This document shows positions 45,725 through 52,630 of a stretch of 64,000 nt of DNA, one piece after another. Under the pieces are notes generated by a model that saw only the letters and a program-made list of their open reading frames with translations, had not been told where the DNA came from and made no database searches. How positions within the stretch are numbered: the stretch's first letter is position 1; every line of letters starts with the position of its first letter. The translations under genes were made by a program, and so were the position numbers. This DNA comes from Microbacterium immunditiarum (GTDB lineage: Bacteria; Actinomycetota; Actinomycetes; Actinomycetales; Microbacteriaceae), in the NCBI RefSeq assembly GCF_013409785.1, contig NZ_JACCBV010000001.1:3038001-3102000 (forward strand), written 5' to 3'.

Positions 45725-47647
45725 TCAGCGCTCCTCGGCGCCCTGGGTCCCCTCCTCGGCGGCCCGCGCAGCGGCCTCGTCAGGCGCTGTGGCCAGGAGC
45801 GCGCGGATGAGCGATTGCGCATCGTACGGCCCCGTGTGGCGCTGACCGTTCACGAAGAAGGTCGGCACGGACGTGATGTCCATCGCGTCGGCGTCGAGCA
45901 TGTCGTCGCGCACCCGCGCCGCGACCTCGGGTGAGCGGAGGTCCTTCTCGAAGCGGTCGACGTCGAGCCCGAGATCGGCCGCCCGACGCAGGATGTCGGA
46001 GGGCATCTGGTGATCCTGGTCGGAGAACAGGCTCTTGGCGAACTCCGTGCGCTTGCCCTGCACCGCCGCCGCCTCGACGGCCTCGGCATCCGCCACCGCG
46101 TTCGGGTGCACGCGTTCGAGCGGAGCGTGCCGCCACACGTAGCGCAGTCGGCCGTCGAGCTCGCGCATGACCTCTTCGATCGAGCCGGATGCCTTGAGGC
46201 AGAACGGGCACTGGTAATCGCCGTACTCGACGATCGTGAGCGGCGCGTCGACCGGGCCCCACACGTGGTCGCGGGTCGGGTCGACCGGACGCGCGAGCGT
46301 CTGGCCGGCCTCGTCATCGGTGTGACGCGCGTCCGAGATGCGGAAGATGATCGCCGCGAGGATGAAGGCGATGGCGGATGCCACGAGCACGCCGACGCGC
46401 GCCTCGTTCTGCGCGAGATCGTCCTCGATCGCGAGGTCGACGATGAACAGCGAGATCGTGAACCCGATGCCGCACAGCACCGCTCCGCCGGCGAGCCGGT
46501 CGAGGGTGAGCCCCGGGCCGAGGTCGCCGATGCGGAACAGCCGGAGCAGGGCTACGGAGCCGAAGACGCCGAGGAACTTGCCGACGACCAGGCCCGCCAC
46601 GATCGCCCACGTGAGCGGCGAGGTCATCGCGCCCGCGAGGATCTCGGGGCTGAGCACGACGCCCGCGTTGGCGAGCGCGAACAGCGGGAGGATCACGTAG
46701 GCGACATAGGGCGCGTACGCCGACTGCAGGCGCTCGTTCACGGAGATCGACTCGCGCAGGCTGTTCGCGGCGAGGCGCGCGTACTCGCTATTGGGCGACT
46801 GGCGGAACGTCCGTGCGAGCTCGAGCGCGTGCTCGACGTCGCGGCGGTTGGGGCGGTACACCGGCACGAGGAGGGCGATCGCGACGCCCGCGAGAGTCGG
46901 GTGGACGCCAGACGCGAGGAACGCGAGCCACACGATGATCGACAGCGTCGCGTAGATCGGCCCGCGCCCGCGCGGCACGTACCGCGTGAAGTACACGCCG
47001 ACGAGCCCGACGGCGGCGATGATCAGCGGGAGCGGGTTGAACGACTCCGTGTAGAAGAGCGCGATGATGCTGAGCGCTCCGATGTCGTCGACGACGGCGA
47101 GCGCGAGCAGGAACACGCGCAGCCGACCGGAGGCGCGTGGGCCGATGATCGCGAGAGCGCCGACGAGGAACGCGGTGTCGGTCGAGATCACGACTCCCCA
47201 CGCGTGCTCCTGCCCGGTTCCCGCTGCGATGAGCATGAAGATCGCCGCGGGCACGACGAGGCCCGCGATCGCGGCGACGACCGGCACGAGCGCGCGCGAC
47301 CAGCTGGTCAGCTCGCCGATCGCGAACTCGCGACGCACCTCGAGCCCGACGGTGAAGAAGAAGATCGCCATGAGCGCGTCGTTGACGAGCGCGTGCAGCG
47401 TGAAGTCGAGGGTGAGGTCACCGACACCGACCGTGAGCTGCGTCTCCCAGAGAGCCTCGTACGTGCCGTGCGAGAGGTTCGCCCACAGGATCGCGACCGC
47501 GGTGGCGATCAGCAGCAGGAGGGCGCAGATGCGGCTCTCGCCCATCGACTGGATCTTCTCGGCGATCGACGGACGCCGGCGCTCGCGCGAACCGCGCGGT
47601 TCGCGCGAGTCACCGGGTCGGCCGATCGTGGTCAGCTGCTGCGTCAT
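45725..47647 (-). CDS. nhaA: Na+/H+ antiporter NhaA fused to a DsbA-like thioredoxin domain
   Basis: A 640-residue fusion. Residues about 35-440 are an NhaA antiporter of 12 helices with STDTAFLVGALAIIGPR and ALAVVDDIGALSIIALFYT, whose paired Asp residues bind Na+/H+. After a polar linker (HTDDEAGQTLARPVD) comes a DsbA/thioredoxin domain with the redox motif QCPFC near residue 481 and the cis-Pro loop SVPTFFVNGQ. This fusion is known in actinobacteria; the role of the redox part is unclear. AGAGGAG precedes the ATG at 47647, which overlaps the stop of the short frame upstream (ATGA). Confidence 0.92.
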   Translation of the reverse strand: MTQQLTTIGRPGDSREPRGSRERRRPSIAEKIQSMGESRICALLLLIATAVAILWANLSHGTYEALWETQLTVGVGDLTLDFTLHALVNDALMAIFFFTVGLEVRREFAIGELTSWSRALVPVVAAIAGLVVPAAIFMLIAAGTGQEHAWGVVISTDTAFLVGALAIIGPRASGRLRVFLLALAVVDDIGALSIIALFYTESFNPLPLIIAAVGLVGVYFTRYVPRGRGPIYATLSIIVWLAFLASGVHPTLAGVAIALLVPVYRPNRRDVEHALELARTFRQSPNSEYARLAANSLRESISVNERLQSAYAPYVAYVILPLFALANAGVVLSPEILAGAMTSPLTWAIVAGLVVGKFLGVFGSVALLRLFRIGDLGPGLTLDRLAGGAVLCGIGFTISLFIVDLAIEDDLAQNEARVGVLVASAIAFILAAIIFRISDARHTDDEAGQTLARPVDPTRDHVWGPVDAPLTIVEYGDYQCPFCLKASGSIEEVMRELDGRLRYVWRHAPLERVHPNAVADAEAVEAAAVQGKRTEFAKSLFSDQDHQMPSDILRRAADLGLDVDRFEKDLRSPEVAARVRDDMLDADAMDITSVPTFFVNGQRHTGPYDAQSLIRALLATAPDEAAARAAEEGTQGAEER

Positions 47648-47886
47648 CCGGCTCCTCTGTGTCCGGTGTCGGGTCGCGAGTCCGCCTCGCTGCGTTCGGG
47701 TGCGCGCGGCGAGACGCCGTGCCACAGCTCGTCGAACGCGATGCTGTCATAGAACGCGACGCCGTCCGAGATCTTCCCGTCCGAGACCGCGTGGTCCATC
47801 CGCTCCGCCTTCCGCAGCTGCGACGCGACGAGGGCCGCGCGGCCCAGTATCGTGCACGTCGGGGGAACGTCGCGACCGTATCTCAC
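47644..47886 (-). pseudogene. C-terminal remnant of an NTF2/SnoaL-like protein
   Basis: An 80-codon frame whose middle, DHAVSDGKISDGVAFYDSIAFDELWHG, reads like the last two strands of SnoaL/NTF2-like proteins (pattern DGKI-x3-x-FYD). Those proteins usually have 110-140 residues, and their N-terminal helices are missing; the first 25 residues look like random frame. The stop overlaps the nhaA start. It may be a decayed gene still serving to couple translation into nhaA, or a short functional leader. Family placement rests on a short motif only. Confidence 0.45.
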
Positions 47887-47897
47887 GAGGAGTCCCG

Positions 47898-48704
47898 ATG
47901 GCCACCGACGAAGTCATCCTGCTGACGGGCGCGACGAGCGGAATCGGGCTCGAGACGGCTCGCCGATTGGCCGCGCGAGCGAAGACGCTGATCGTGCAGG
48001 GACCCGAGCCCGCGGATGCCGCCGCTGCGGCGCTCGCGTCCATCCGGGGTGCGGGCGGTGCGCGCGTCGAGTACGTCTCGGCGGACTTCACGAAGCTCGC
48101 GGATGCCGCGACCGCCGCATCCGCGATGCGGGAGGCCGCCGGCGCGCCCGTCACCGCCCTCATCAACGACGCGGGCGTGCCCGGCAGCCCCGAGCGCGGG
48201 GTGACGGCCGACGGCCACGAACGCACGCTGCAGGTGAACTTCCTCGCCCTCGTGCTGCTCAGCGAGCTGCTCGCACCGTCGATCGCCCCGGGCGGGCGCC
48301 TCGTGAACCTCGCGTCGGCGACGCACGAGTCCGCGTCGCTCGACCTCGACGACATCGAGCTCGAGCGCGGCTACTCCCCCGTCCGCGCCTACGCACGCTC
48401 GAAGCTCGCCATCGTCATGTACACGCTGTGGCGCGCGCGGCGCCGCGGCGACGGGCCGACGGCCGTGAGCCTCCAGCCGGGAGTCATCAACACCGCGCTG
48501 CTCGGAGCGATGTTCGGTCGCATCGGCACGGGCGTCGACGTCGGCGCGCGCAGCATCCTCGACGCTCTCGATGCGCCCGCGCGCGGCGGCGAGTACTTCG
48601 ACGAGGGCAGGCTCACCGCCCCGAGCGCACAGGCGCGCAACGTCGTGCTCGGCGATCGGCTCATGGAGTGGACGCTCGACGCGCTCGGACCTCACCTCGT
48701 GTGA
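47898..48704 (+). CDS. SDR-family NAD(P)-dependent oxidoreductase
   Basis: A 268-residue SDR enzyme. TGATSGIGLETARRLA near residue 10 is the classical TGxxxGIG cofactor site, NDAGVPG corresponds to the NNAG motif, and YARSKLAIVMYTLW contains the catalytic Tyr-x3-Lys near 165. The sequence is of the retinol dehydrogenase/WW-oxidoreductase-like branch. CGAGGAG lies 5 bases before the ATG. The substrate is unknown. Confidence 0.9.
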   Translation: MATDEVILLTGATSGIGLETARRLAARAKTLIVQGPEPADAAAAALASIRGAGGARVEYVSADFTKLADAATAASAMREAAGAPVTALINDAGVPGSPERGVTADGHERTLQVNFLALVLLSELLAPSIAPGGRLVNLASATHESASLDLDDIELERGYSPVRAYARSKLAIVMYTLWRARRRGDGPTAVSLQPGVINTALLGAMFGRIGTGVDVGARSILDALDAPARGGEYFDEGRLTAPSAQARNVVLGDRLMEWTLDALGPHLV

Positions 48705-48733
48705 CGCCCGGCCGCGCGCCGCCGCGCGTGTGG

Positions 48734-48739
48734 TAGGTT
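48734..48739 (+). promoter_or_regulatory. Promoter -10 box of the Trp leader
   Basis: TAGGTT, 6 bases before the ATG of the leader peptide, so even the leader peptide is expected to be translated from a leaderless mRNA. Confidence 0.65.
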
Positions 48740-48745
48740 CGGCGC

Positions 48746-48781
48746 ATGCTCGCGAACCGCACCTGGTGGGCCGCCTTCTAG
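48746..48781 (+). CDS. trpL: Trp leader peptide
   Basis: Eleven-codon frame encoding MLANRTWWAAF, with two adjacent Trp codons at positions 7-8, followed by TAG. It lies 80 bases before the anthranilate synthase gene and directly before an intrinsic terminator. Stalling of the ribosome on the Trp codons when charged tRNA-Trp is scarce would free the downstream region for the antiterminator. It is a classical attenuator leader, too short for standard gene callers. Confidence 0.9.
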   Translation: MLANRTWWAAF

Positions 48782-48831
48782 GCGGTGCGTTCGAGCGACG
48801 ACAGACCGCCCCCGGGCGGTCTTCTTCTTCG
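48773..48831 (+). terminator. Trp attenuator: pause, antiterminator and terminator hairpins
   Basis: Terminator: AGACCGCC (48803-48810) and GGCGGTCT (48815-48822), an 8-bp stem, loop CCCG, followed by the U-rich TCTTCTTC. Pause stem: CCGCC-TTCTA-GGCGG around the leader stop codon (from 48771). Antiterminator: GGCGGT at 48781-48786 can instead pair with ACCGCC at 48805-48810, which removes the 5' arm of the terminator. The three structures are mutually exclusive in the expected order. Confidence 0.85.
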
Positions 48832-48861
48832 TGGGGAACCGCCCCCGACGAGAGACACACG

Positions 48862-50811
48862 ATGACCGGGACCGCACCCCCCTCCCTTCGCGAGCTGGCC
48901 GCGAGCGGCCGCCCCTTCGCCCTCATCGCGCGCGACGACGCCACCGTCGAAGTGCTCATGGGCGACGTGGTCGACGTCGAGCTGCTGGGCGACATCCCGC
49001 TCGCGGATGCGTCGGGCACGCCGCGCGAGGTGCTCGCGCTCGTGCCGTTCCGGCAGGTTCGCGAGCGCGGGTTCGAGTGCCACGACGACGCCGCGCCGCT
49101 GCGCTGCCTGGTGGTCGCGGAGCACACACGGATGCCGCGCACCGAAGCCCTCGCGCAGCTCCCGGCCGAGCAGATCCCGCTCACAGGCGCGGGCTTCGAC
49201 ATCCCGGACGACGACTACGCCGACGTCGTGCGGCGCGTCATCGCCGACGAGATCGGCCGCGGCGAGGGAGCGAACTTCGTCATCCGCCGCGATTTCACCG
49301 CCGGCGTGGCATCCGACCCCGTTTTCGCCGCCCTCGCGTGGTTCCGTGCCCTGCTCGAGCACGAGCGCGGCGCCTATTGGACCTTCGCGATCGTGACCCC
49401 CGGTCACGTCGCGGTGGGCGCGAGCCCCGAGGCGCACGTGAGCGCGAAGGGCGGGTTCGTCACGATGAACCCCATCTCGGGCACCTTCCGCCACCCCGCG
49501 GGCGGCGCGACGGCCGAGGCGCTCAGCGAGTTCCTCACTTCGACGAAGGAGACCGAAGAGCTCTTCATGGTCGTCGACGAGGAGCTCAAGATGATGAGCG
49601 CCGTGTGCTCGGACGGCGGCCGCATCACGGGCCCGCACCTCAAGGAGATGTCGCGGCTCACCCACACCGAGTACGTGCTGCGCGGGCGCAGCCGCCTCGA
49701 CCCCCGCGAGATCCTGCGCGACACGATGTTCGCGCCGACGGTCACCGGATCGCCCATGCAGAACGCGTGCACGGTCATCACGCGCCACGAGCGCACGCCG
49801 CGCGGGTACTACTCGGGCGTGGCCGCGCTCTTCACCCCGCGCGCCGACACCGACCCGGGCGCGGCCGACGGGCCGTCGCACGATCTCGACGCCCCCATCC
49901 TCATTCGCACGGCGTATCTCGTCGACGGGCGCCTGCGCGTGCCGGTCGGCGCGACGCTCGTGCGCCACTCCGACCCCCACGGCGAGGTCAGCGAGACGCA
50001 CGGCAAGGCGGCGGGCGTGCTCGGCGCGATCGGAGCCGTCCCGCGCGATCGTGCCGCCGAGCTGGCCGCCCTGCGCGCCGAGGGCGCGATCGACGAGGAC
50101 GCGCCGGCCCCCGAGCCGCGGCGGCTCGCCGACGATCCGGCGATCGCGGAGCTGCTGCGCTCACGCAACGCGCGACTCGCTCCGTTCTGGCTCAACCCGC
50201 AGGACGCAGCGGGTCACGGTCCCTTCGAAGGCCGCGACGCGATCGTCGTGGACGCGGAGGACCGTTTCACGACGATGCTCGCCCACCAGCTGCGGCACCT
50301 CGGCCTCGATGTGCGGATCGTCCACTGGAGCGAGGTCGCCGACGAAGAGCTCGACGAGGCGGGGCTGGTCGTGTCGGGCCCCGGTCCGGGCGATCCGCGC
50401 GATCCGTCGAACCCCCGCATGAAGCGGATGCGCGAGGTCGTCGCGCGCCGCCGGGCGAGCGGCCGTCCGCTCTTGGCCGTGTGCCTCAGCCATCAGGTGC
50501 TCGCCGACTCGCTCGGCATCGAGCTCGCTCCGCTCGACCGCCCGCACCAGGGGCTGCAGCGGACGGTCGACGTGTTCGGCGAGCCCGCCTCGATCGGCTT
50601 CTACAACACGTTCACCGCGCGCGTGCGCCCGGGCGCGACGGCCGTGGGCGACGCCGAGGTCTCGGCCGACCCCGAGTCAGGCGACGTGCATGCGCTGCGC
50701 GGGCCCGGCTTCGCGTCGGTGCAGGGGCATCTCGAGTCGATCCTGTCGCGCGACGGCATGCGCACGCTCGAGCGCCTCGTCGAGCACGCGCTCACGCCGG
50801 TCGGGGCCTGA
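48862..50811 (+). CDS. trpE: Fused anthranilate synthase (components I and II)
   Basis: A 649-residue fusion. The N-terminal 420 residues form the chorismate-binding aminase (FVTMNPISGTFRHPAGG, STKETEELFMVVDEELKMMSAVC, GSPMQNACTVI, PRGYYSGVAALF). The C-terminal 200 residues are a class I glutamine amidotransferase with GPGPGDPRDPSN, nucleophile Cys in LLAVCLSHQVLA near 541 and His-Glu in QGHLESI near 628. The order is that of PhzE and of fused actinobacterial TrpE-TrpG. The Trp attenuator upstream points to tryptophan synthesis, and no phz genes are nearby. I do not see the LLES motif of feedback-inhibited TrpE near the N-terminus. Confidence 0.9.
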   Translation: MTGTAPPSLRELAASGRPFALIARDDATVEVLMGDVVDVELLGDIPLADASGTPREVLALVPFRQVRERGFECHDDAAPLRCLVVAEHTRMPRTEALAQLPAEQIPLTGAGFDIPDDDYADVVRRVIADEIGRGEGANFVIRRDFTAGVASDPVFAALAWFRALLEHERGAYWTFAIVTPGHVAVGASPEAHVSAKGGFVTMNPISGTFRHPAGGATAEALSEFLTSTKETEELFMVVDEELKMMSAVCSDGGRITGPHLKEMSRLTHTEYVLRGRSRLDPREILRDTMFAPTVTGSPMQNACTVITRHERTPRGYYSGVAALFTPRADTDPGAADGPSHDLDAPILIRTAYLVDGRLRVPVGATLVRHSDPHGEVSETHGKAAGVLGAIGAVPRDRAAELAALRAEGAIDEDAPAPEPRRLADDPAIAELLRSRNARLAPFWLNPQDAAGHGPFEGRDAIVVDAEDRFTTMLAHQLRHLGLDVRIVHWSEVADEELDEAGLVVSGPGPGDPRDPSNPRMKRMREVVARRRASGRPLLAVCLSHQVLADSLGIELAPLDRPHQGLQRTVDVFGEPASIGFYNTFTARVRPGATAVGDAEVSADPESGDVHALRGPGFASVQGHLESILSRDGMRTLERLVEHALTPVGA

Positions 50812-50814
50812 CGC

Positions 50815-52155
50815 TCACACCGCGCCCGCGATGCGCGCGGCGAGCAGCCGCCGCTCGGCCTCGTTCGCCGTGAGCTCGCGGGCGCGGATGTCGGCCGCAT
50901 CCGCCTCCGCCATCCGCCCGAGGTCTCGCAGCAGCCGGCCGCGCACGGCGTGCCACAGGTGGTAGCCGTGGAGGGACGGACCCAGGGCGTCCAGATCTGC
51001 GAGCGCCGCCGCGGGCCCGTCGACCTGCGAGAGGGCGACGTCCCGGTTGAGTCGCACGATGGGCGACGGATCGCGAGCCACGAGCAGGTCGTACAGCGTG
51101 AGCACCTGGAGCCAGTCGGTGTCGGCCGACGTGGACGCGTCGGCATGGCACGCCGCGATCGCCGCGTGGAGCTGCCACCGACCCGGATGCCTCAGCCGAG
51201 CCGCGCGTTCGAGCGATGCACGCGCGTCGGCGACGAGCCGGTGATCCCACAGCGACCGGTCCTGGCCGGCGAGGAGCACGAGCCGGCCATCCACCGCACG
51301 CGCCCCCTCGCGCGCCCGGTGGAACAGGAGGAGCGCGAGCAGGCCGTGCGCCTCCGCCTCGCGCGGAAGCGCGTCCGCGACGACGCGAGCGAGCCACACG
51401 GCGTCGTCGGCGAGGTCGCGATCCGCCGACGCATCGCCGCCCGCGACGAGGTGCGCGCAGCTGTACATGACCGACACGACCGTCAGCACGAGGTCGAGGC
51501 GCTCCGCGCGCTCCGCCCCCTCGGGGATGCGCAGCGGGATTCCCGTCTCGGCGATGCGGCGCTTCGCGCGCACGATCCGCTGCTGAACGGCCGTCTCGGT
51601 CGAGAGCGTCGCCCGCGCGAGCTGGGCCGCCGTCAGGCCGACGATCGCGCGGAGCGTGAGCGCGAGCTGCGCGTCGGGCGAGAGCGCGGGATGGCAGCAT
51701 CCGAACAGCAGCGGCAACCGCTCGTCGACCTCCGTCGCGCCGACGGGTGGAGCCTCGGCGAGAAGCACGAGCTTCTCGCGGTAGCGCTTCTGGCGGCGCA
51801 TCCGGTCGAGCGCGTTGTGCCGCGCCGCCTGCGTGAGCCACGCACCGGGGTTCGGCGGGATGCCCCGGCGCCGCCACTCGCGCAGCGCCTCTTCGACCGC
51901 GTCCGCCACCGCCTCCTCGGCGAGGTCCAGGTTGCCGAGCGAGGTCGTGAGGGCCGCGACGATGCGCGCGGACTCCTCGCGCACGACGCGAGCGAGGAGA
52001 AGATCAGATGCTCCGGCCGCGGTCGCATCGAGCGCGGCCGGAGCGTCCGGAGCGGGGTTCGAGAACGGGCCCGCATGCCTCGCGTCTCCGCGCTCTGCGC
52101 CCCCGCGCTCTGCGCCCCCGCGGCGCGGAGCAGGCATGGGGCCCGTCGTGCTCAC
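50815..52155 (-). CDS. ECF RNA polymerase sigma factor (YCII-associated)
   Basis: A 446-residue ECF sigma factor of the long type. Region 2 covers LLLARVVREESARIVAALTTSLGNLDLAEEAVADAVEEALREW and PNPGAWLTQAARHNALDRMRRQKRY; region 4 holds LTLRAIVGLTAAQLARATLSTETAVQQRIVRAKRRI near residues 175-210. The remaining 220 residues are an alpha-helical, TPR-like extension typical of this group, thought to replace an anti-sigma factor. Its GTG overlaps the stop of the YCII gene (GTGA). The pair is widespread in bacteria. Confidence 0.92.
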   Translation of the reverse strand: MSTTGPMPAPRRGGAERGGAERGDARHAGPFSNPAPDAPAALDATAAGASDLLLARVVREESARIVAALTTSLGNLDLAEEAVADAVEEALREWRRRGIPPNPGAWLTQAARHNALDRMRRQKRYREKLVLLAEAPPVGATEVDERLPLLFGCCHPALSPDAQLALTLRAIVGLTAAQLARATLSTETAVQQRIVRAKRRIAETGIPLRIPEGAERAERLDLVLTVVSVMYSCAHLVAGGDASADRDLADDAVWLARVVADALPREAEAHGLLALLLFHRAREGARAVDGRLVLLAGQDRSLWDHRLVADARASLERAARLRHPGRWQLHAAIAACHADASTSADTDWLQVLTLYDLLVARDPSPIVRLNRDVALSQVDGPAAALADLDALGPSLHGYHLWHAVRGRLLRDLGRMAEADAADIRARELTANEAERRLLAARIAGAV

Positions 52156-52520
52156 TGCTCGAACTGGCTGTAGTCCTCGACCATCGGCCGGATCTCGACC
52201 GCCACTCCGGGGAGCGCGAGCGAGGGCCACGTCTTCGTGAGCTCGATCGCGGCGTCGAGGTCGGGGACATCGATGACGCTGAAGCCGCCCACGACCTCCT
52301 TCGCCTCCGAGAAGGGGCCGTCGACGACGACGGGGCCGCCGTCGGAGTGCTTCACGGTGGTCGCGGTCGAGATCGGCATGAGCTCGGCTCCCGAGTCGGC
52401 GAACTTGTCGCGGTTGTCCTGGAACCATTGGTAGATCTGCGCGTAGACCTCCTGCGCGCGCTCGGGAGGCACGGCGTCGTCGAACTCGGGCACCGAGGTG
52501 AACATGAGAACGTACTTCAC
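52152..52520 (-). CDS. YCII-domain protein (DGPF type)
   Basis: A 122-residue dimeric alpha/beta-barrel protein of the YCII family, carrying the signature VVDGPFSEAKEVVGGFSVIDV. Such proteins are regularly encoded with ECF sigma factors of the neighbouring type and may sense a ligand; the mechanism is unknown. The start is the GTG at 52520, since GAAAGGA lies 8 bases before it and KYVLMF is the family's usual N-terminus. The 110 bases upstream contain no clear vegetative promoter, so self-control by the ECF factor is possible. Confidence 0.92.
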   Translation of the reverse strand: MKYVLMFTSVPEFDDAVPPERAQEVYAQIYQWFQDNRDKFADSGAELMPISTATTVKHSDGGPVVVDGPFSEAKEVVGGFSVIDVPDLDAAIELTKTWPSLALPGVAVEIRPMVEDYSQFEQ

Positions 52521-52630
52521 GGTCGCGTTCCTTTCGTCAATGGGAACCGTTTCACCCCTACAGCGAACGGGCAAGGCCCGGATCGACACGGTCCGCGAAG
52601 CATCTCGCGCCGGACTTCACGCGCGTCGCG

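Follow-up and report, generated by a model that had tools for sequence, protein, structure and literature searches.

A putative ribosome-mediated tryptophan attenuator with a leaderless leader peptide before a PhzE-like fused anthranilate-synthase-type gene in Microbacterium

Introduction

A trp attenuator of Streptomyces venezuelae was reportedly described by Lin, Paradkar and Vining in 1998. Like the element studied here, it precedes an anthranilate synthase gene (cited in PMC1262725, PMC4833913), and tryptophan-dependent regulation is reported to have experimental support (PMC4833913). In Streptomyces lividans, trpL1-trpE (SLIV_27122/27120) combines a leaderless Trp-run peptide, TrpL1 (MFAHSTRNWWWTAHPAAH), two hairpins, a U-enriched stretch, apparently Rho-independent termination and a monocistronic trpE (PMC8079986). 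The locus below shares the Trp-run peptide, the hairpins, the U-rich stretch and an apparently single downstream gene, whereas TrpL1 has 18 residues with three Trp codons against 11 residues with two Trp codons here. The attenuators predicted in Corynebacterium and Streptomyces (Seliverstov et al., 2005; PMC1262725) share double or triple UGG codons, a GC-rich terminator with poly-U and complementary triples common to the hairpins, and differ in that they precede trp operons.

Two further systems were compared. In Sinorhizobium meliloti trpLE(G), the 5′ end lies at the ATG of the 14-residue trpL and attenuation is shared, whereas that organism is an alphaproteobacterium in which both the terminated RNA and the leader peptide have trans-acting roles (PMC7298713). 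For Corynebacterium glutamicum ilvBNC, an anti-antiterminator hairpin was likewise proposed over a leaderless start region; that system concerns branched-chain amino acids, and the Microbacterium case differs in resting on complementarity that changes together from genus to genus (PMC11857589).

The DNA analyzed (hereafter, the window) is a 64,000-nt stretch of Microbacterium immunditiarum (GCF_013409785.1, contig NZ_JACCBV010000001.1, positions 3,038,001 to 3,102,000). A first-pass annotation of its letters had proposed a compact Trp attenuator before a fused anthranilate synthase gene and had called a leaderless Trp leader unusual; the latter does not hold, as such leaders have been mapped in S. 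lividans (PMC8079986) and S. meliloti (PMC7298713). The element is of a kind already known from Streptomyces, here in Microbacterium. From the sequence comparisons below, positions 48734-48861 are read, with a probability of about 0.88, as a Trp transcription attenuator that works through a ribosome on a leaderless leader peptide and controls an apparently monocistronic gene for a fused anthranilate synthase. A search of the open-licence literature for Microbacterium with attenuator, leader peptide and tryptophan returned no report. A 2015 survey of Trp attenuators in Actinobacteria by Korolev et al. is said to exist and may already list Microbacterium.

Results

Features of the locus

Coordinates are those of the window.

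48731-48739, + strand: extended -10 element TGG-TAGGTT (hexamer TAGGTT, 48734-48739), read directly
48746-48781, + strand: leader ORF trpL, MLANRTWWAAF*, 11 codons, ATG at 48746, six bases past TAGGTT
48748-48760, + strand: 5′ arm, outer part of hairpin 1:2 (codons 1-5), pairing with 48782-48796 in the minimum free energy (MFE) structure and supported by permutations
48764-48769, + strand: tandem Trp codons (codons 7-8), putative sensing site
48770-48776, + strand: segment 1, GCCGCCT, inner arm of the putative anti-antiterminator 1:2, from the fold of a 27-nt slice
48780-48786, + strand: segment 2, AGGCGGT (GGCGGT, 48781-48786), pairing with segment 1 or segment 3
48787-48796, + strand: stretch after segment 2, 3′ arm of the outer helix, pairing with the start of the leader ORF
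48803-48822, + strand: intrinsic terminator hairpin (segment 3, 48803-48810; loop, 48811-48814; segment 4, 48815-48822)
48823-48830, + strand: U-rich tail TCTTCTTC (= UCUUCUUC), directly after the terminator stem, the U run interrupted by a C
48862-50811, + strand: fused anthranilate-synthase-type enzyme, 649 aa, chorismate-binding and class-I glutamine amidotransferase domains, PhzE-like

The terminator stem, AGACCGCC (48803-48810) with GGCGGTCT (48815-48822), has 8 perfect base pairs around a 4-nt loop, and the antiterminator has 6 bp, GGCGGT (48781-48786) with the ACCGCC part of segment 3 (48805-48810). In the whole-leader MFE structure of the window, codons 4-5, rather than segment 1, are the partner of segment 2. 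Folded in isolation, 48746-48832 reached -39.8 kcal/mol (z = -2.01), and 8/200 shuffles were equally good; the fold of one sequence alone is only moderately convincing, and it is conservation that decides. The -10 element, the WW leader, the stem at the stop codon, the antiterminator, the terminator and the U-rich tail all lay where the first-pass annotation had placed them. Its 'pause stem' stands in part: there is a stem around the stop codon, but it seems to be just the inner portion of a longer hairpin extending to the 5′ end.

Inspection by eye revealed no -35 element upstream of TAGGTT (48734-48739). Judged from the promoter spacing, transcription would start at, or a base or two from, the A of AUG 48746, and a ribosome must therefore load on the 5′ end if the start lies there.

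Conservation among relatives

A set of 78 genomes was searched (the window's own, 46 of the same genus and 31 at order level), and a protein match of some kind was found in 77/78. The WW leader was present in 45/45 genus genomes with readable upstream DNA, out of 47; 44 of these loci were measured by script and the 45th (L066) was read by eye. In one genus genome (G023) a contig end cuts the leader, and in another (G044; 650 contigs, 88% complete) the full fused gene was not found. Across the 44 measured loci, TAnnnT stands 6 nt (27 loci) or 7 nt (17 loci) before the leader start without exception, preceded by TGn in 42/44. Leader length was 11 codons in 44/44, with two possible starts in L043 and L049, of which the one nearest 11 codons was taken, and the first Trp was codon 7 in 43/44. 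The compact Trp attenuator of the first-pass annotation stands, and so does its predicted leaderless start.

Fused genes were found in four of the 31 order-level genomes. One has a WW leader and lacks a strict TAnnnT (G061), one has a 28-residue WW leader with TAnnnT (G077), one has no recognisable leader upstream (G067), and the upstream region of the fourth is cut (G060).

From a scan of named genomes, the best 80 of 549 confirmed loci were taken: 61 from Microbacterium, three from metagenome-assembled genomes (MAGs) without a genus name, and the others from Brachybacterium, Plantibacter (2), Rathayibacter (2), an Arthrobacter MAG, Promicromonospora (2), Jiangella (2), Myceligenerans (3), Blastococcus, Humibacter and Embleya. 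Two loci (L086, L111) are cut by contig ends. In the first pass, where several leaders with a -10 element competed, the one closest to 11 codons was chosen, and a first letter C was allowed; the count was then repeated with strict TAnnnT. A WW leader with strict TAnnnT 5-8 nt before its start was present in 78/78 readable loci of these best 80, spanning 11 named genera, although the loci are mutually related and many species occur in both the same-genus and named sets. Dinucleotide shuffles of the same upstream regions gave a WW leader with TAnnnT in 0/3900. The placement used here to recognise a leaderless leader, a -10 element 5-8 nt ahead of the start codon, was found in the same-genus and the named loci alike.

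Within a phylum-level sample of 346 genomes, 18 carried a fused relative at E ≤ 1e-60, the window's own and three genus members included. Outside the genus (n = 14), a WW leader with TAnnnT stood before the first copy in 13 (L160-L172), all near full-length matches; for the class-level locus L173 (G380), which matches over half the protein, no WW leader was found. No WW leader could be recognised before two fused genes, L173 and the order-level L062. Where large genomes, probably Streptomyces, carry the fused gene twice, the second copies (L174-L177) had a WW leader in 0/4 within 600 nt upstream of the match and may belong to secondary metabolism. One peptide before a fused gene (MFAHSTQNWWWTAHPAAH, L168) is 17/18 identical to S. 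lividans TrpL1.

Spacing between the Trp codons and segment 2

A gap of 11 nt separates the last Trp codon from segment 2 in 93/113 unique loci, and one of 10-13 nt in 112/113 (same-genus, named (best 80 of 549) and phylum-level sets; 135 loci before identical ones were dropped). The segment 2 pattern accepted close GGCGG variants, some of them one base earlier, and some of the 14 loci scored at 10 nt may therefore belong with those at 11 nt. For the L172 leader, no GGCGG-like segment 2 was found. The spacing held while the stop codon moved from 2 to 13 codons past the last Trp across the 113 loci. The stop codon overlaps segment 2 in the window, whereas in loci like that of S. lividans it lies past segment 2; in the Embleya and Streptomyces-like loci segment 2 lies inside the ORF and still starts 11 nt from the last Trp codon. 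Given the size of the ribosome footprint, 11 nt is what the leading edge of a stalled ribosome would demand.

Pairing and covariation

The 78 named loci and the window were aligned, giving 70 distinct rows after identical sequences were dropped. Terminator pairs were kept in 98.6% of cells, and three pairs had changed on both sides; 0/500 shuffles reached the paired percentage or the covariation score, and 49/500 reached the number of further pair types. Antiterminator 2:3 pairs were kept in 93.3% of cells, with a covariation score that 81/500 shuffles reached and that was exceeded at five of six slid registers (-2, -1 and +1 to +3 columns). Inner 1:2 pairs were kept in 87.1% of cells; no covariation was found there, and 500/500 shuffles reached the paired percentage. 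The letters of both pair sets hardly vary. Covariation supports the terminator only, and the antiterminator and the inner 1:2 stem are without such support. With partners slid by 3 columns, about 72-73% of cells were still paired, because GGCGG repeats itself, and in some rows (e.g., L069, L075) the inner stem has slipped.

The antiterminator and terminator share segment 3 and are mutually exclusive, and both pair sets were kept in most rows. The sliced terminator was stronger than the sliced antiterminator in only 41/70 rows; folding energy alone therefore does not decide the switch.

Rfam families and covariance model R1

The first-pass annotation had proposed a check against Rfam Trp leader models, which gave no family at gathering threshold anywhere in the window; at E ≤ 10, eight matches fell in 48000-49500, none overlapping the element. 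The nearest family, Trp_leader RF00513, matched below threshold at 1/9 relatives' loci (L093; 29.2 bits against 41). A covariance model of 75 positions (R1) was built from the 70 rows and is supplied where no Rfam family reached threshold. Beside the fused gene, R1 had a single strong match (E = 2.3e-7 or better) in the window's own genome and in 45/46 genus relatives; this count is in part built in, because many of the rows come from the same species. G061 also gave one match, and so did G059, a genome of another family, where it precedes a tryptophanyl-tRNA synthetase gene; R1 missed G077. Weak second matches (E = 3e-4 and above) occurred in 11 genus genomes, with one more in G073.

Attenuators before trpS are known from Streptomyces (PMC8079986, PMC1262725). 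In an order-level relative (L178, positions 2402-2510, - strand), a leader of this kind, MLTTRRSMQWWPA, and a terminator precede a tryptophanyl-tRNA synthetase gene, with the -10-like hexamer CATGAT.

Complementarity of the leader start

The leader's opening codons show complementarity to a stretch that begins at the end of segment 2, an outer helix that the first-pass annotation had not noted. Among 97 unique loci (122 before identical ones were dropped), the mean duplex energy was -12.9 kcal/mol, against -11.1 (sd 0.24) with the downstream arms permuted, and 0/1000 permutations reached it; the permutations remove relatedness only partly, and the downstream arm does not sit at the same position in every type. 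The mean longest helix was 6.8 bp, against 5.6 (sd 0.2) in permutations (0/500), over 27 loci chosen by hand for a spread of types and genera. The downstream arm opens, in the Microbacterium loci, with the last bases of segment 2. The two arms change together from genus to genus, as in GCGAGCAC/GTGCTCGC (L020), GTTCACGAA/TTCGTGAAC (L109), GTACGCGA/TCGCGTAC (L135) and TGCGTTCG/CGAACGCG (L143), and in Embleya (L144; GTGATCGCG/CGCGATCAC, also as GUGAUCGCG/CGCGAUCAC) the start codon is included in the helix. The helix has 6 bp in the window and only 4-5 bp in 6/27 loci (L130, L132, L138, L162, L166, L169). Ribosome-free RNA thus probably hides its own 5′-terminal start region.

The fused enzyme and the tryptophan pathway

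For the fused protein, all 25 listed of 41 matched NCBIfam families scored below cut-off, among them TrpE-clade3 (TIGR01815) with 135 bits against a cut-off of 739. Among solved structures, the best relative was 3r74, which we take to be PhzE, at 500 bits; all others reached at most 71 bits, and chains named anthranilate synthase component I 46-55 bits. A profile of five fused proteins matched 3r74 over positions 14-640 of 643, with 730 bits for the whole chain. The first-pass annotation was right that the gene is fused and of synthase type, and the enzyme it called a fused anthranilate synthase is PhzE-like and not a canonical TrpE. The trpE(G) gene of S. meliloti is a fused gene of another subfamily.

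No match to Anth_synt_I_N (PF04715) was found in the fused protein, nor at E ≤ 0.001 in the window's genome, which is one contig rated 100% complete; 14/14 control genomes matched. Only two other chorismate-binding proteins occur in the genome. One (L053) is PabB (TIGR00553; 331 bits, cut-off 328), and the other (L002), tried as a second TrpE, was rejected as an isochorismate synthase (TIGR00543; 239 bits, cut-off 225). The lack of a PF04715 match and the assignment of these two proteins leave the fused gene as the sole candidate for anthranilate synthase; trpD and IGPS lie elsewhere in the genome, each over cut-off. From its status as sole candidate, the enzyme would make anthranilate and not ADIC.

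PF04715 was absent from 40/47 genus genomes and present in 27/31 order-level genomes, in 24 of those 27 at E = 4.3e-22 or better. Weak matches were observed in the other seven genus genomes (G004, G018, G025, G026, G032, G038, G043; best E from 4.7e-4 to 3.9e-15), and these are suspected to be PabB or a fused PabAB.

Discussion

Proposed mechanism

Without a ribosome, folding suggests that the first codons, segment 1 or both would pair with segment 2 and the stretch beyond it, leaving the terminator to form (OFF). With enough charged tRNA-Trp, a ribosome would reach the stop codon and cover segment 2, and 3:4 would again terminate transcription (OFF). When Trp-tRNA is short, the ribosome would stall on codons 7-8 and strip off the 5′ arms, its leading edge just before segment 2; segment 2 would be left free to pair with segment 3, and RNA polymerase would read into the fused gene (ON).

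A tentative extension, to which we give somewhat less than even odds, is that the outer helix limits ribosome loading to the time RNA polymerase needs for about 50 nt. Besides charged tRNA-Trp, the attenuator might then also sense initiation capacity, and it might answer only its own promoter, since RNA reading through from upstream, having no 5′-terminal AUG, would terminate; it would govern the only anthranilate synthase of Microbacterium, a PhzE-like fusion without the canonical TrpE N-domain.

Alternative explanations

The same attenuator might be carried on a transcript that begins further upstream, its leader ORF being translated internally and not leaderless. We found no mapped 5′ end for Microbacterium, a -35 element was not apparent, and a short-chain dehydrogenase gene upstream, also on the + strand, has its end at 48704, which means that read-through transcripts may exist. 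Yet TAnnnT lies 6-7 nt before the start in 44/44 same-genus loci and 5-8 nt before it in 78/78 of the best 80 of 549 named loci, and if TAnnnT is the promoter a Shine-Dalgarno site would not fit into this spacing; for S. lividans, moreover, a leader of this kind is reported as transcribed leaderless (PMC8079986). We consider the upstream start improbable. Still harder to sustain is a hairpin that merely terminates the dehydrogenase gene, with the WW ORF arising by chance. It does sit about 100 nt past the dehydrogenase stop codon, but the WW leader and the -10 element are kept with the fused gene over 11 named genera (0/3900 shuffles), the distance from the Trp codons to segment 2 is fixed, and a further copy precedes trpS; almost nothing is left for chance.

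A different doubt concerns the enzyme, which could be a PhzE-type ADIC synthase of a secondary pathway and not the anthranilate synthase of Trp synthesis. The 500 bits to 3r74 against 46-55 for component I chains, and the 25 listed of 41 NCBIfam families all below cut-off, point that way, and sequence is reported not to reveal what makes PhzE stop at ADIC (limazepine paper, PMC5958127). Against this, the gene is the sole candidate beside PabB and isochorismate synthase in a 100% complete genome with trpD and IGPS, a Trp leader precedes it, and a fused S. venezuelae enzyme has been described as an anthranilate synthase (PMC5897657; title cited in PMC5958127). An ADIC synthase is accordingly unlikely, slightly more so than the upstream start, and a leaderless Trp attenuator controlling an anthranilate synthase is the preferred reading. 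A trans-acting leader peptide of the S. meliloti type was also considered and is not favoured, because the residues before WW vary between loci and those after it seem to follow the RNA pairing.

Significance

An element mapped in Streptomyces is extended here to most of the sampled Microbacterium and to ten other named actinomycete genera, with one fixed 11-nt ruler seen in a leaderless setting. This Microbacterium genome has a single candidate for anthranilate synthase, and that candidate is no canonical TrpE. The element could serve as a compact reporter for how fast ribosomes load on 5′-terminal start codons in living cells.

Neighbouring genes and further observations

The fused gene appears monocistronic, because the frame that follows it with recognised domains (sigma-70 regions, 50815-52428) runs on the opposite strand. 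At 50815-52589 (- strand), convergent and 3 bases from the fused gene, a frame with sigma-70 regions and DUF6596 lies beside a YCII-domain protein. By its Pfam domains, the protein encoded at 45725-47725 (- strand) is a fusion of an NhaA-type Na+/H+ antiporter with a DsbA-like thioredoxin domain. The pattern TAnnnT-N6-ATG occurs seven times in the window, against 1.2 expected, with as many in 0/100 shuffles; this excess suggests that leaderless starts are common in the genome (GCF_013409785.1).
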